Shown here: positions 17,244 through 39,398 of the stretch, piece after piece
Position numbering within the stretch: the first letter of the stretch is position 1
How the letters are laid out: every line of letters begins with the position of its first letter
Source of the DNA: a virus
DNA length: 64,000 nucleotides
Virus record (IMG/VR): IMGVR_UViG_3300028610_000804
Span: 1-64,000 of that record
Strand: one strand, 5' to 3'
Position numbers and translations under genes: made by a program
Notes under the pieces: generated by a model
What the model was told of the DNA's origin: nothing
Seen by the model: the letters and a program-made list of their open reading frames with translations, nothing else
Database searches by the model: none

Positions 17244-17334
17244 AAAAACTACTGCACCTAAAAAATCTGTAACCAAAAGATCTATAACTAAACGTACTGT
17301 TAAAAAGAAAAATAAACCTAATGGCAATAAATGA
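17227..17334 (+). CDS. 35-aa Lys/Thr-rich basic peptide
   Basis: It consists of repeated Lys-Thr, Lys-Lys and Lys-Arg groups (KKTTAPKKSVTKRSITKRT). It overlaps both neighbours. Such peptides may bind nucleic acid; the function is unknown. Confidence 0.4.
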   Translation: MPKHLKKTTAPKKSVTKRSITKRTVKKKNKPNGNK

Positions 17335-19408
17335 CGACATACAAGATGAGGCCATAAAGCATGCTATTTTTTTAGAGCGCCTGCGTAATAAAGAAGTCAA
17401 TAAAATTTTAGCCACGCTTAATGATGATGTGCTGCCTGATGTCGAAAAAGAGATAAACCGCAGACTGCGCAGAAATATGTCAGCGGATAGATTTATCAGA
17501 ATGCGAAAAGCATACACAATACTTTTGCGTGAAGGGTACAAGGGTTTAGGTGTTGACCTTAAGAGTGATCTTTTAGACATTGCAAATAATGAAGCAGAGA
17601 ATCAAATACGTATTATTAATAAAAATTCCCCTATTTCATTAGCACTAACTGTACCCTCTCAAGCAGTGATGCGGCAAATTGTAAATGGTAAAGTAAGAGG
17701 GCAAACTATTAAAAAATATTTTAATCAGTATGCAGACCGGGACGCCAATGAAATTACAAGACGGCTTAGTATAGGTTTAGCAGAGGGTGACAGTATCCCG
17801 GATATGACGCGTAGGATTGTCGGCACAAAAGCACAAGGTTTTTCAGATGGTGTTTTTAATGGTACTCGCCATAACGCGCAGACGTTAGTGCGCACATCTG
17901 TGACCGAGGTAACTGTAAAAGCAAGAGAAGCAACCTACGAAGCAAATTCTGATGTGATTGATAAAGTAAAATATGTCGCAACACTAGACAGCCGTACAAC
18001 ACCTATCTGCGCTTCTCTTGATGGTGAGGTATTCCCAATTGGTGAAGGCCCCAGGCCTCCCCAACATTTTAATGCGCTTGTGGGGGGTACTCTAATAACT
18101 ACAAAAAAAGGTTTAACACCTATTGAAGATGTTAAGGTAGGTGACGAGGTATTGACACATTTAAACAGATGGAAAAAAGTTTATACAGTTATGGCTAAAT
18201 CACATAACGGTAAAATTAAAAAACTAAAAACGTCTTTCAATACCTGTGTTAGCCTCACGGACGACCACCCGATACTTACCAAAACCAGAGGATGGCTTAA
18301 TGCTAGGGATGTTTGTACAGGTGATGTACTTTTTCAAAACTTTGAAAAGTTTACTAAGATGCCAATGGCCGTTGGGGTGTCGTCTGTAATCACGCAGGCT
18401 GTCTTGACTAACTCGCACAACATGCCAACCAAGTGTATTGAGGACCTTATCCCGTATAGCATCAGCAGTTTTTCTGCTGGCATGTCCTCTACCGTCAATC
18501 TCAAGGATAACTTTACCAAAAGTAAAATCAGCAATACCACCCCTGACAGATTTTTGAAAACAAAATATTATACCCCTGCGTTGAAATATTTTAATAAGTG
18601 CCGCTTCATGTCTTGTTGGATTTTTACTATAATTATCAGCACGTGTTTTAAGAATTTTTTCTTTAGTGCCTTTATCAAACATTGGGTTAGACTTCTTCAT
18701 TCTTGCAGAACTTTGTTTAGCAAGCTTTTTACTTTTTTTGATATTCTGTTTTCTCCAATGGTCAGCACCAGATGCCCCCTTAAGATGGCCATTAGCGTGC
18801 CCACTTCTAATACTCTCGGTTCTGGTGCGTGTCTTAATTCCCAAGCGTTTGCAACTACTTTGCACAACAGTTTTACCTACCCCAAGTTCTCTTTCAATTT
18901 GTCTAAGAGGTTTACCCAATTTCCAGTGCTCTCTTTTAATAATTTTTTCAAGTTCTTTTTTAGTGAACGTAGCCATAACTCCCCCTCTAATTGGTTTGCC
19001 TCATCAAGCATATCAAATGTAGATGAGTACTACAACGGGTATGTTTACAATCTAGCTGTTGTGGATGACGAGACTTATTTAGCTAATGGGTTATTAGTGC
19101 ATAATTGCAGGAGTACCACGGTACCTGTAATAAAATCATTTGAGGATTTAGGCATACCAGGGCTTAATGAATTACCACCATCTACCAGGGCATCAGCAAG
19201 CGATACCTTTAAAGGGCAGGTTCCGGCTACTCAAACATACCCCCAGTGGTTACGCAATCAGTCAAAGGCTACCCAGCAAATGGCTTTAGGCAAAGAAAGG
19301 TCTGCGTTATTTCGGCGCGGGAAGCTGAACGATAAGTTCTTTTTTAATGATAAAACTAAGCAGCTTACCCTTCCACAGATGCGTGCAGCTGAAGCAAAAT
19401 TAGATTAA
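17321..19408 (+). CDS. MuF-like minor head protein interrupted by an intein
   Basis: The host protein is a phage Mu gpF-like (MuF) minor head protein. Its N-extein is residues 1-251, ending in the family motif GEGPRPPQHFN. The C-extein is residues 596-695, starting CRSTTVPV. Together they rebuild the MuF motif PPxHxNCRST. Excision of the 344-residue intein would leave a 351-residue protein. MuF proteins link the portal and capsid and may enter the cell. Earlier segments TPICASLDGEVFPI and ARTSVTEV-like RTSVTEVTVKAREATYE also match. The intein carries an antisense endonuclease gene. Confidence 0.9.
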   Translation: MAINDDIQDEAIKHAIFLERLRNKEVNKILATLNDDVLPDVEKEINRRLRRNMSADRFIRMRKAYTILLREGYKGLGVDLKSDLLDIANNEAENQIRIINKNSPISLALTVPSQAVMRQIVNGKVRGQTIKKYFNQYADRDANEITRRLSIGLAEGDSIPDMTRRIVGTKAQGFSDGVFNGTRHNAQTLVRTSVTEVTVKAREATYEANSDVIDKVKYVATLDSRTTPICASLDGEVFPIGEGPRPPQHFNALVGGTLITTKKGLTPIEDVKVGDEVLTHLNRWKKVYTVMAKSHNGKIKKLKTSFNTCVSLTDDHPILTKTRGWLNARDVCTGDVLFQNFEKFTKMPMAVGVSSVITQAVLTNSHNMPTKCIEDLIPYSISSFSAGMSSTVNLKDNFTKSKISNTTPDRFLKTKYYTPALKYFNKCRFMSCWIFTIIISTCFKNFFFSAFIKHWVRLLHSCRTLFSKLFTFFDILFSPMVSTRCPLKMAISVPTSNTLGSGACLNSQAFATTLHNSFTYPKFSFNLSKRFTQFPVLSFNNFFKFFFSERSHNSPSNWFASSSISNVDEYYNGYVYNLAVVDDETYLANGLLVHNCRSTTVPVIKSFEDLGIPGLNELPPSTRASASDTFKGQVPATQTYPQWLRNQSKATQQMALGKERSALFRRGKLNDKFFFNDKTKQLTLPQMRAAEAKLD
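18074..19105 (+). other. Ala1 intein in the MuF protein
   Basis: The intein covers codons 252-595 and begins with Ala instead of Cys or Ser (ALVGGTLITTKKG, block A). Block B has the TxxH motif (SLTDDHPILT) followed by GWLNARDV. Blocks F and G read VYNLAV and TYLANGLLVHN, with the +1 residue Cys. Ala1 inteins of the KlbA-like class 2 splice by direct attack of Cys+1. Block F lacks the Cys of class 3. The central 200 residues are only the mirror image of an antisense gene and hold no LAGLIDADG motif. Confidence 0.9.
18224..18976 (-). CDS. Antisense homing endonuclease of Vsr-like/EDxHD type inside the intein
   Basis: This 250-residue gene lies wholly within the intein on the opposite strand. 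It has its own ribosome site (AGAGGGGGAGTT before the ATG). Residues 4-50 form a helix-turn-helix (PLRQIERELGVGKTVVQSS). Residues 120-195 are a Vsr/DUF559-like nuclease: Glu124 (RHEAAL), Asp150 (GGIADF), Glu159 and Asp161 with His165 (LEIDGRGH), and Asp176. The last 40 residues overlap intein block B and are probably an extension. Its codons are exact complements of the sense codons. It should cut intein-free MuF alleles and promote homing. Confidence 0.85.
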   Translation of the reverse strand: MATFTKKELEKIIKREHWKLGKPLRQIERELGVGKTVVQSSCKRLGIKTRTRTESIRSGHANGHLKGASGADHWRKQNIKKSKKLAKQSSARMKKSNPMFDKGTKEKILKTRADNYSKNPTRHEAALIKIFQRRGIIFCFQKSVRGGIADFTFGKVILEIDGRGHASRKTADAIRDKVLNTLGWHVVRVSQDSLRDYRRHPNGHWHLSKLFKVLKKYITCTNIPSIKPSSGFGKYRVVVREANTGIERRF

Positions 19409-36782: not shown

Positions 36783-39398
36783 ATGCCAGTACTAAGTGTT
36801 GCCATTGATGCACGACCAGCCACTACAGGGGCCTCAAAAGCCGATAGAGCTTTTAAGAAATTAAAAACAGGTGCAAAAGGTGCCCGTGGTGAGCTGGATA
36901 AATTCGATAAGAAGAACAAAGAGCTTGAAAAATCAACCAAGTCTGTAACAAGCTCATTAGGTCAATTTGTTACTGTACTTGCTGCAGTGGCTGCGGCAAA
37001 AGATGCTATCAGGACCATAGCGGATTTTGAGCAATCGATGGTGACACTTGGTGCTGTGGCAGGGGCTACTGGAGATCAACTGGAAGCCCTTGAAGTAACT
37101 GCGAGGAAACTAGGGGCCACAACACGTTTTAGTGCTACAGAGGCTGCTGATGGGCTCCTGTTCTTAGCTAGGGCGGGATTTGAGACTGAAGAAGCCATAG
37201 CCGCTTTACCAGCTACTTTAGATCTAGCCACTACGGGAGCCATTGAACTAGGCGAGGCTGCAGATGTGGCTAGTAACATCTTAAGCGGGTTTGGCTTAGA
37301 AGCAAAAGAAACTTCACGTGTGGTCGATTCTTTAGTTAACGTATCCAATAGAGCAAACACAAGTGTTGCACAACTCGCGCAAGCATTTGTAGATGTGGCC
37401 CCTATTGCCAAGGCTGCCGGGCAAAGCTTAGAAGAAACTGCATCACAGTTAGGTGTACTTGGTGATTCTGGTATTCAAGGTAGTAAAGCTGGCGTTGCCC
37501 TACGTGGTATATTACTTAGTTTAGAAAACCCATCAGTAAAAGCTAGAAAAGCTTTTAGGTCTTTAGGTCTAGACCTTGATGAATTTAATAAGCAAGGGGT
37601 ATCCGCCACAGAAATATTAAGAAGATTTGTTGCGGCAGGCGCAGACTTACCCAGGGCGGCTAATGTTTTTAATACTAGATTTGCAGGTGCTGCTCTTATT
37701 ATCGGTGAAGCTGCAAACAGAGTTGATGAACTCACAGAAGCCCAAAAAGAAAATAGAGGTGCGGCAGAAGAACAGGCTAGAGTAATGGCTGATACTTTAG
37801 GCGGTGCGTTTAAATCTCTTATCTCTGCAACTGAAGAATTTATTTTATCTATCGGTGATTCAGGGGCGGCGGGTAGTTTAAAAAATATGGTGGAAGCCGT
37901 AACTGATGGCATAAGATTTTTGTTAGGTTTGCAGGATAGTTTATCAGGTACGGCACAAAGGGCTGCGGCTGTTGCCGCAACATTAAAGGCAATAAGTATT
38001 TTTATAGGGGCTATTATTGCATTTAAATTTACTGCGGTAATTATTGGAATGAGTAAGGCTATGTTTGCACTGGCTAAAGGCTCTGCAGCAGCTGCTATAT
38101 CTACAGCACCTTTATTAACTATATTTGCTAGCCTCGTTGCTTTAGCTGCAGGTATAGTTATAGGTAAAACATTATTTAATGAATTTAAAATAGCCCAAGA
38201 AGCCGCAGCTGCTTTTGCTGAATTCTTTTTAAATATTGTTGAGCGTATTAGGTTTGGTTGGAATACTGGCGTGTCACAATTAACTAAAATTTGGGTGACG
38301 TTTACTAGTGGTTTTAAAATTGCGTGGTCTGAAGCAGAGAGATTTATAGAAAATGGTATCTTAGATGTAGCTTCTTTTTTTAATAAAAACTTAGATGTTA
38401 GTTTAGCTAGGAAGTTTGTTGATGACAAAGCTAATCAGGTACTTAAAGATTCTCTAAAAGATATTGTGGATGCTGAGAAAAAAGCCAATGCTGAAATCAT
38501 AGCAGATGCTTTAGAATCTGGAGTAAGACTAAATGCTATAAGAAAAAATGCTAATGAAGAATTTTTAAGAATACAAAAAGAGTTTGGTAAAAAGCAAAGT
38601 AAAGGTGACATATTTAAAGCTGCAAAAAAATCTGTTAAAGAACTTATCACAGGAATCAATGAACTCAATTTAGGTTTAGATTTAACTAGTAAGGCATCTT
38701 TTGATGTTGCTATTAGTTTTGATAAAATGGCTAATTCAGCAGGAAAAATACCTGATTCTATAGAAAAAACAAATAATGGTTTAGATGAAGTTCTTAAAAA
38801 ATTAAAAGATGCAAATGAAACTATGGGCCAGATGGAAAAAACCGGGCAAATTATCGGTAGCGGTATTGCCGATGGTTTGACTACAGCGTTATTCCAGGCA
38901 AAAAGTTTACGAGAAGTTTTAAATGAAACAGGTAGACAGATTACACAGCAGATAGCGAAACAAGCTATTGCACAAGCAATCACAACTGGTATTAGTGCAG
39001 GGTTCTCTGGAGGTACACAAACTAATGCAGAAGCTTTACAGTCTGCAGGAGCACAAACACAAACATTTAGTAGTGCGGGTACGAATTTTCAAAGTGCGAA
39101 CGGTAATGTTTTTAATCAAGGTAATATCCAACAATTTCAAAATGGGGGTGTTGTAAATACTCCAACATTGTTTAATCAGGCGAACGGAAAACTTTCATCT
39201 ATGTCTGAAGTAGGCCCTGAAGCTATCCTACCACTCAAACGTAAGAATGGTAAACTTGGGGTATCATCCGATGGTGGTGGGGGTACTACAGTTAACAATA
39301 ATATTAATTTTACAGTAAACGCTACTGATGCTAATAGTTTTAAACAGTCACGATCTCAAATTTTAGGTGACTTACAAGCAGGATTGGCTAACGCATGA
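36783..39398 (+). CDS. Tape measure protein
   Basis: This 871-residue protein has a TP901-like core (residues about 70-350: QSMVTLGAVAGATGDQL, ATEAADGLLFLARAGF, GVALRGILLSLENPS). Hydrophobic segments near residues 390-460 (ALKAISIFIGAIIAFKFTAV-like) follow. The C-terminal region has the common ending FQNGGVVNTPTLF and SEVGPEAILPLKR. It sets tail length and may form a channel in the host membrane. Confidence 0.95.
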   Translation: MPVLSVAIDARPATTGASKADRAFKKLKTGAKGARGELDKFDKKNKELEKSTKSVTSSLGQFVTVLAAVAAAKDAIRTIADFEQSMVTLGAVAGATGDQLEALEVTARKLGATTRFSATEAADGLLFLARAGFETEEAIAALPATLDLATTGAIELGEAADVASNILSGFGLEAKETSRVVDSLVNVSNRANTSVAQLAQAFVDVAPIAKAAGQSLEETASQLGVLGDSGIQGSKAGVALRGILLSLENPSVKARKAFRSLGLDLDEFNKQGVSATEILRRFVAAGADLPRAANVFNTRFAGAALIIGEAANRVDELTEAQKENRGAAEEQARVMADTLGGAFKSLISATEEFILSIGDSGAAGSLKNMVEAVTDGIRFLLGLQDSLSGTAQRAAAVAATLKAISIFIGAIIAFKFTAVIIGMSKAMFALAKGSAAAAISTAPLLTIFASLVALAAGIVIGKTLFNEFKIAQEAAAAFAEFFLNIVERIRFGWNTGVSQLTKIWVTFTSGFKIAWSEAERFIENGILDVASFFNKNLDVSLARKFVDDKANQVLKDSLKDIVDAEKKANAEIIADALESGVRLNAIRKNANEEFLRIQKEFGKKQSKGDIFKAAKKSVKELITGINELNLGLDLTSKASFDVAISFDKMANSAGKIPDSIEKTNNGLDEVLKKLKDANETMGQMEKTGQIIGSGIADGLTTALFQAKSLREVLNETGRQITQQIAKQAIAQAITTGISAGFSGGTQTNAEALQSAGAQTQTFSSAGTNFQSANGNVFNQGNIQQFQNGGVVNTPTLFNQANGKLSSMSEVGPEAILPLKRKNGKLGVSSDGGGGTTVNNNINFTVNATDANSFKQSRSQILGDLQAGLANA

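Follow-up and report, generated by a model that had tools for sequence, protein, structure and literature searches.

A predicted phage MuF intein with a putative homing endonuclease gene nested on its opposite strand

We analyzed a stretch of 64,000 nucleotides of viral DNA (IMG/VR record IMGVR_UViG_3300028610_000804, positions 1 to 64,000; hereafter the window), in which the head morphogenesis gene muF contains an intein and the intein carries, on its opposite strand, an open reading frame (ORF) for an endonuclease-like protein. The features of the locus are listed in Table 1. The muF product matched the Pfam families Phage_Mu_F (PF04233, E = 8e-11) and Intein_splicing (PF14890, E = 9e-9, with a score equal to the curated cut-off), as well as the head morphogenesis family phrog_241 (E = 6e-91). 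An initial annotation, made from the sequence alone, had described a complete endonuclease gene with its own Shine-Dalgarno sequence, antisense inside an intein whose sense frame stays open and whose removal would leave a MuF protein of 351 residues. Joining the flanks in silico gave this length, with the junction PPQHFN|CRST. The minus-strand ORF of 250 codons starts with ATG, ends with TAG, and is preceded by the Shine-Dalgarno-like AGAGGGGGAG, as had been stated. A split or fractured host gene was ruled out by the single open frame of 695 codons. No tRNA was found in a search of the 64,000-nucleotide window.

Table 1. Positions of muF, its intein, and the antisense gene in the window
Feature	Coordinates	Strand	Basis
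muF (head morphogenesis) gene with intein	17321..19408	+	695-aa precursor; PF04233, PF14890, phrog_241 matches
Intein, 344 aa, residues 252-595, A1 ... HN then C	18074..19105	+	Junction motif; empty-site relatives
Antisense endonuclease gene (putative), 250 aa, helix-turn-helix-like N-terminal part and C-terminal DUF559/EDxHD-type nuclease	18224..18976	-	ORF, Pfam, fold, alignment
Ribosome-binding region of antisense gene, 5'-AGAGGGGGAGTT before ATG	18977..18988	-	Sequence
Intein block B TDDH, within 3' part of antisense gene	18257..18268	+	Sequence; overlap test
Intein block F VYNL	19043..19054	+	Sequence
Intein C-terminus VHN before C+1	19097..19105	+	Sequence

The antisense protein matched DUF559 in Pfam (E = 1.8e-10). 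Its AlphaFold model had a predicted local distance difference test score (pLDDT) of 78 overall and mostly about 90 in the nuclease part (residues 101-190). The closest fold was the catalytic domain of the homing endonuclease I-Bth0305I (VIA-align Z 12.2 over 93 residues at 2.3 A; Foldseek E 1.7e-4), followed by a Neisseria endonuclease-like protein (Z 11.4), two mitoribosome chains (Z 11.1), and Vsr (Z 9.5). The search of the minus-strand product by profile methods, proposed in the initial annotation, pointed the same way, with profile A4 retrieving 3r3p from the PDB (E 3e-8) and profile A1 alone retrieving 3hrl (E 1.5e-7). The five residues highlighted at the outset as an active site (Glu-124, Asp-150, Asp-161, His-165, and Asp-176) are present and invariant in all four members of the window's own lineage. 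A wider alignment of 49 sequences kept Glu-124 in 47 and both Asp-150 and Glu-159 in 49; the alignment reference lacks the first Met, making its numbering one lower (E123, D149, E158, D160, H164, and D175). The EDxHD type was assigned from the residue pattern, and the name of the motif follows a 2014 review (PMC3943268). The N-terminal part of the protein aligned to helix-turn-helix (HTH) regulators with Z 5-8.

Splicing motifs were found at both ends of the window intein, in the form of the PF14890 match and the terminal VHN|C. The intein starts with Ala (N|ALVGGT) and not with the Cys or Ser of class 1, as do the inteins of its relatives L001-L003 (N|AC...). Class 2 inteins are defined by Ala1 with direct attack by C+1, and both Ala1 and C+1 are present here; a phage intein of a class-2-like type is possible for this lineage, judging from these residues. 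Class 3 inteins are expected to carry a Cys in block F; block F in the window and L001-L003 reads VYNL, VYNI, or VFNI, without Cys. AlphaFold modeled residues 1-10, 41-90, and 311-344 of the sense intein with a mean pLDDT of at least 90, residues 11-40 with low values, and the insert mostly below 60.

The nested arrangement recurs in other phages. Three Vibrio phages (MG592631, MG592457, and MG592630) encode relatives of the antisense protein (tblastn identity 38.1-43.5%, covering 95-96% of its length), each antisense and in register inside a muF gene annotated as one coding sequence (CDS). Searching with the sense protein led to the MuF inteins of Guernseyvirinae (PhiSTP2 and the E. coli phage Snoke) and of two more Vibrio phages, all with an antisense ORF in register, and a tblastn search with Snoke's antisense product matched 107 phage records, 65 of them named Salmonella. 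Twelve further loci were inspected in Salmonella, Pantoea, Gordonia, Aaphi23, Klebsiella, Mycobacterium, Idiomarinaceae, Edwardsiella, and Acinetobacter phages, and 11 of these showed the nested antisense gene with an open sense frame, giving 15 of 16 further phage loci inspected beyond the three close relatives. The exception is Acinetobacter phage IME285, in which the homologue (L029:455-1348, plus strand) is free-standing and convergent, placed immediately downstream of a muF gene without an intein and slightly overlapping its end; it lies in a different register with sense stops present, served as our control, and possibly represents an escaped or ancestral state. None of 18 nested loci inspected in named phages had a CDS annotated over the antisense reading frame. 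What had been presented as a single locus is one case of a recurrent architecture.

This more distant clade, to which Snoke's nuclease belongs, matched the window lineage in a profile comparison with a probability of 98.9 and E 1e-17. A profile scan of IMG/VR yielded 173 relatives, and the best 80 of the 173 were used for locus analyses. Removal of 20 near-duplicate loci and of L053, which has a broken frame, left 59 non-redundant loci; L053 was kept in the open-frame count given below and was left out of the Pfam-match, codon, start, pair, junction, and Shine-Dalgarno counts. Three of the non-redundant contigs (L031, L040, and L096) have exact 60-mers in common with named loci that were also used, so that the IMG/VR and named sets are partly dependent. 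At E <= 0.01, 53 of the 59 sense ORFs matched Intein_splicing, many of them possibly below the Pfam cut-off, as is the case for L031, and 48 matched MuF. Cys1 was found in 48 of 48 loci whose junction could be parsed by a script that looked for Cys; 11 of the 59 were left unparsed, and in 7 of the 48 the C-side mark fell at T or S, several visibly misplaced. One antisense-endonuclease intein lies in an ORF that fuses uracil-DNA glycosylase and DNA polymerase A (L086:729-5003, minus strand), indicating that MuF is not the sole host. A portal-MuF fusion ORF (L052:3216-7406, minus strand) gave in-frame matches to a Hint and a LAGLIDADG domain near its portal part and a separate match to the antisense-type intein.

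Other scans returned few relatives. When IMG/VR was scanned for close relatives, the window nuclease found its own contig only and those of L003 and L001 found nothing; Snoke's nuclease found one contig, and profile A1 added one more, L007. Over genome contigs, profile A1 gave 325 pattern matches and zero relatives, and profile A5 gave one match, in Aggregatibacter. A plasmid scan gave 2 records.

The sense and antisense frames of the intein locus share their codon register, and thus a sense stop can arise only from an antisense TTA, CTA, or TCA codon. None of these occurs among the 16 Leu and 18 Ser codons of the window nuclease; in 19 other ORFs of the window, such codons make up 54% of Leu and 28% of Ser codons, a usage under which the chance of finding zero is ~9e-9. 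The 59 non-redundant IMG/VR loci likewise had 0 observed versus 299 expected from local codon usage. These expectations assume independent codons. The free-standing Acinetobacter control contains 12 such codons in 298. No sense stop interrupted the nuclease match in 79 of 80 IMG/VR loci, L053 being the exception, whereas all but one (L096) of 320 tallies of the other frames in the same loci contained stops, up to 46. The open sense frame described in the initial annotation is thus borne out, and the avoidance of sense stops suggests that the intein is most likely translated through.

Substitutions indicate which of the two frames has been under selection. Between the window and L001, differences over endonuclease codons 1-200 fell at the gene's own positions 1, 2, and 3 in 90, 77, and 117 cases, and of 55 single-base codon changes, 29 were silent in the endonuclease versus 8 in the intein frame. 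The comparison with L003 over the same codons gave 62 such changes, 33 silent in the endonuclease versus 10 in the intein frame. We also examined a Guernseyvirinae set of seven sequences (six annotated and the IMG/VR contig L018, 98% identical to Snoke's nuclease). Its N-extein varied at 108, 72, and 219 sites of sense positions 1, 2, and 3, compared with 100, 22, and 50 in the endonuclease core and 117, 33, and 72 in the whole body. The excess at sense position 1 in the core corresponds to the antisense wobble, meaning that variation follows the endonuclease's own third positions. Of 172 single-base codon changes in this core, 122 were endonuclease-silent versus 31 intein-silent, and the sense pattern returned in the splicing stretches outside the endonuclease gene. 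Counts of this kind are phylogenetically non-independent, but 20 disjoint IMG/VR pairs agree: 850 of 1437 changes were endonuclease-silent versus 396 intein-silent, and each of the 20 pairs favored the endonuclease. For the N-extein control, 464 of 687 changes were silent in its own frame versus 118 in the reverse frame.

In most of the distant clade, the block F motif HVYNLQ, read on the opposite strand, gives the Shine-Dalgarno sequence and start of the endonuclease (e.g. TTGGAGGTTGTAAAC-ATG). Opposite the block F His codon, an ATG or GTG stands within the endonuclease open frame in 46 of the 59 non-redundant IMG/VR loci, 42 of which have a 4-base Shine-Dalgarno match. Among 78 sequences, which comprise IMG/VR and named loci with some overlap, 58 show the block F motif, the 20 without it falling outside the codon counts. 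His is encoded by CAT in 55 of the 58, and Leu by CTC in 50 (86%), compared with 24.5% of Leu codons overall. A separate Shine-Dalgarno count of 53/59 is biased because starts having one were picked, and the counts of 46/59 and 58/78 are cleaner. At the other end, no more than about ten residues separate the endonuclease stop from the intein start in 16 of 24 loci looked at. The window lineage differs in that the endonuclease start lies ~70 bp inside block F, with a Shine-Dalgarno sequence of its own.

Comparison of muF genes with and without the insert, which the initial annotation had suggested, revealed exact empty sites. Twenty-four phage records, L001 included, have an N-extein at least 90% identical to that of L001, and the nuclease search matched 2 of them. 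Four of the other 22 records were inspected; they are V. breoganii phages with N-exteins 92-98% identical and an exact empty site, and in 4/4 the empty gene encodes 366 aa, as does the flank-joined product of L001. The flank-joined product of Snoke (347 aa) likewise aligned gap-free to the 347-aa product of the empty Bas74 gene, with 330 residues identical. L001 and L002 differ at 16 of 1023 bases in the intein, compared with 92 of 783 in the N-extein and 64 of 315 in the C-extein, and the first 240 bp of the L002 C-extein are identical to those of the empty phage L008. For L014 and L015, the intein differs at 32 of 975 bases and the exteins at 106 of 762 and 47 of 333. Together, these alignments show intein transfer between alleles in the relatives, and we infer that the endonuclease is its driver. 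Other movable genes occur around muF: in the intein-free V. breoganii phage L009 (MG592593), a DNA methylase gene separates portal from muF, and muF is followed by a gene for a DNA-binding domain, neither having an annotated counterpart there in L008, L010, or L011.

These results lead us to propose that the window contains a mobile MuF intein in which a homing-type endonuclease gene is nested antisense, in codon register, instead of being fused to the splicing domain, a reading to which we assign a probability of about 0.88 on the available sequence evidence. Sense translation of muF would yield the 695-residue precursor, with a Hint splicing domain interrupted by a long loop that would be mainly a "shadow" of the antisense gene. 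Protein splicing would then remove all 344 residues and restore MuF. From the opposite strand, the gene's own Shine-Dalgarno sequence would permit synthesis of a free HTH-EDxHD-type endonuclease, which is expected, when phages co-infect, to recognize and cut intein-free muF genes at the conserved site around H-x-N|C-R. Repair of the cut would copy the intein together with the endonuclease gene. It is also likely that the window represents a class of composite phage inteins, found in MuF and at least one other host, with intein and homing endonuclease on opposite strands and motifs used twice, which has been kept across very distant phages.

Several observations weigh against this proposal. No allele nearly identical to the window's muF but free of the intein was seen. 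With Ala at position 1, the window intein would either depend on a class-2-like route for splicing or could be impaired in it. Asp-161, His-165, and Asp-176 are not conserved in the distant clade (49-sequence alignment), and the distant-clade nucleases scanned (Snoke and Vib113) missed the Pfam cut-offs, their best match being MTES_1575 (E 0.095 and 0.023). The Pfam HTH matches of the antisense protein were all below cut-offs, making the HTH label an inference from the structural Z of 5-8. No promoter-like site stood out for an antisense transcript, 3 being found over both strands versus 4.0 expected in shuffles. Finally, the C-terminal tail of the nuclease (the last ~50 codons, over block B) departs from the pattern of the core: 6 changes were endonuclease-silent versus 7 sense-silent between the window and L001 (n = 18), 4 versus 12 between the window and L003 (n = 20), and 7 antisense-silent versus 17 sense-silent of 31 in the Guernseyvirinae set. 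From these counts, the sense frame appears at least as constrained over the tail, where either it rules or both frames count. The sense insert would be mainly antisense shadow, but it is not meaningless throughout, given that these codons overlap the block B motif TDDH.

Long antisense ORFs can arise by chance, and two of 317 and 182 aa lie within the tape-measure gene of the window itself (37475-38428 and 38435-38983, minus strand); these are probably chance mirror ORFs and gave zero Pfam matches at E <= 0.01. Could the ORF in muF likewise mirror an ordinary intein insert that lacks an endonuclease or contains a decayed one? Such an origin is contradicted by the homologues, the nuclease fold, and the invariant active-site residues, all on the antisense strand, by substitutions concentrated at its own third positions, and by the lack of stop-complement codons, which the free-standing homologue does contain; we consider it close to impossible. 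The initial annotation had made its case depend on homologues and purifying selection, and both were found, in the three Vibrio phages and in the antisense-frame selection. The reverse relationship, with the sense insert as the true product and the antisense reading as its shadow, would account for an FHGD...VDIV motif conserved in a 41-sequence sense alignment. In 19 of 20 loci looked at, however, FHGD and VDIV are the complement of VAVE and YN(I/L)D, the two catalytic stretches of the nuclease, and silent changes favor the antisense frame by 850 to 396. The low pLDDT of the insert, set against values above 90 for most splicing blocks, argues in the same direction, although a shallow alignment could contribute to it. 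We regard this reversal as very improbable.

Equally improbable is a fractured locus in which the halves of a split intein are trans-spliced around a free-standing endonuclease gene. Similar nucleases are said to sit in fractured split-intein loci, but the sense frame is open in the window, in all three close relatives, and, as counted above, in nearly all of the further phage and IMG/VR loci, and the strong avoidance of stops would be needless for a trans-spliced intein. A more serious, albeit unlikely, alternative is that the endonuclease is real and has lost its homing function, acting in another role such as interference with rival phages at muF or surviving as a relic. One IMG/VR copy (L049:3159-3995) has a stop in the endonuclease match with the intein frame intact, as expected for endonuclease decay or from a sequencing error, and attack on rivals would share one cut with homing, making the two compatible. 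The recent allele-to-allele movement in two Vibrio phage pairs, the sporadic presence of the intein, and the intact active site speak for homing.

If the nested, mobile intein is real, block F read backwards provides the Shine-Dalgarno sequence and start of the endonuclease, and blocks A-B supply its C-terminal end and stop codon in the same manner. A conserved protein motif would then have a second use, marking where translation starts on the opposite strand. The endonuclease would be decoupled from late structural-gene expression, offering an alternative to in-frame fusion and making it testable how a selfish gene is expressed apart from its late host gene. Inteins are usually described as one polypeptide with splicing and endonuclease parts; here, both strands are read over hundreds of bases, each with a separate constraint, providing a natural data set for the evolution of overlapping genes, and the gene has been overlooked by annotation. 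Among the openly licensed PMC titles and abstract openings listed, we found no description of an antisense homing endonuclease gene in an intein and none of an intein in MuF. A paper on mycobacteriophage inteins (PMC5050341) makes no mention of MuF, antisense, reverse strand, opposite, capsid maturation, or minor capsid. For overlapping reading frames, another paper (PMC11855218) cites a 2025 preprint on non-canonical actinobacteriophage inteins; to judge by its title, the preprint may cover the Gordonia and Mycobacterium MuF inteins and is the main prior-art risk.

The window intein shares with canonical inteins the Hint splicing domain, the N|C junction, and presumably endonuclease-driven mobility. 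It differs from them in that the endonuclease, fused in frame in the canonical design, has a gene of its own on the opposite strand; a 2014 review (PMC3943268) describes the endonucleases of inteins as fused to them. The canonical design occurs at the same MuF site (HPN|C) in an IMG/VR contig with an in-frame DUF559 nuclease (L007:2876-5116, plus strand). A third arrangement was found in helicase inteins of Vibrio phages 24 and 104E43.1 (L004:2183-2929 and L005:2327-2938), in which a DUF559 nuclease (E 1.1e-11 and 9.9e-14) is read from the same strand, shifted to the +1 frame, and the intein frame stays open. Between these two phages, 113 of 200 residues are identical in the nuclease frame, compared with 72 of 197 in the intein frame. 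In the nuclease search, twelve records matched weakly (E 1e-5 to 8e-3), all from Vibrio phages and partly annotated as helicases; two were examined. As for other ARRANGEMENTS, related nucleases sit in inteins in three ways: antisense, in-frame, and same-strand +1. If the nested reading is correct, the +1-frame genes of the Vibrio helicase inteins would add another solution.

In insertions of the ShiLan type in phage methylases (PMC11855218), an HNH endonuclease is concealed in another frame of the same strand, and no splicing domain is detectable. These insertions share with the window a homing endonuclease in another frame of an insert left open in the host frame; they differ in being same-strand and HNH with no Shine-Dalgarno sequence, whereas the endonuclease here is of the EDxHD type, lies on the opposite strand of an intein, and has a Shine-Dalgarno sequence. 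The EDxHD (Vsr-like) homing endonuclease I-Bth0305I, the best fold match and a profile match to the antisense nuclease, is described in its PDB entry as a "mobile intron protein," whereas the window nuclease is nested antisense in an intein. Free-standing homing endonuclease genes also occur in group I introns; among those in nuclear rDNA introns, some are antisense. These have in common with the window an endonuclease gene that is separate from the splicing element shielding it. The RNA of a group I intron needs no translatability, whereas here both strands must stay open.

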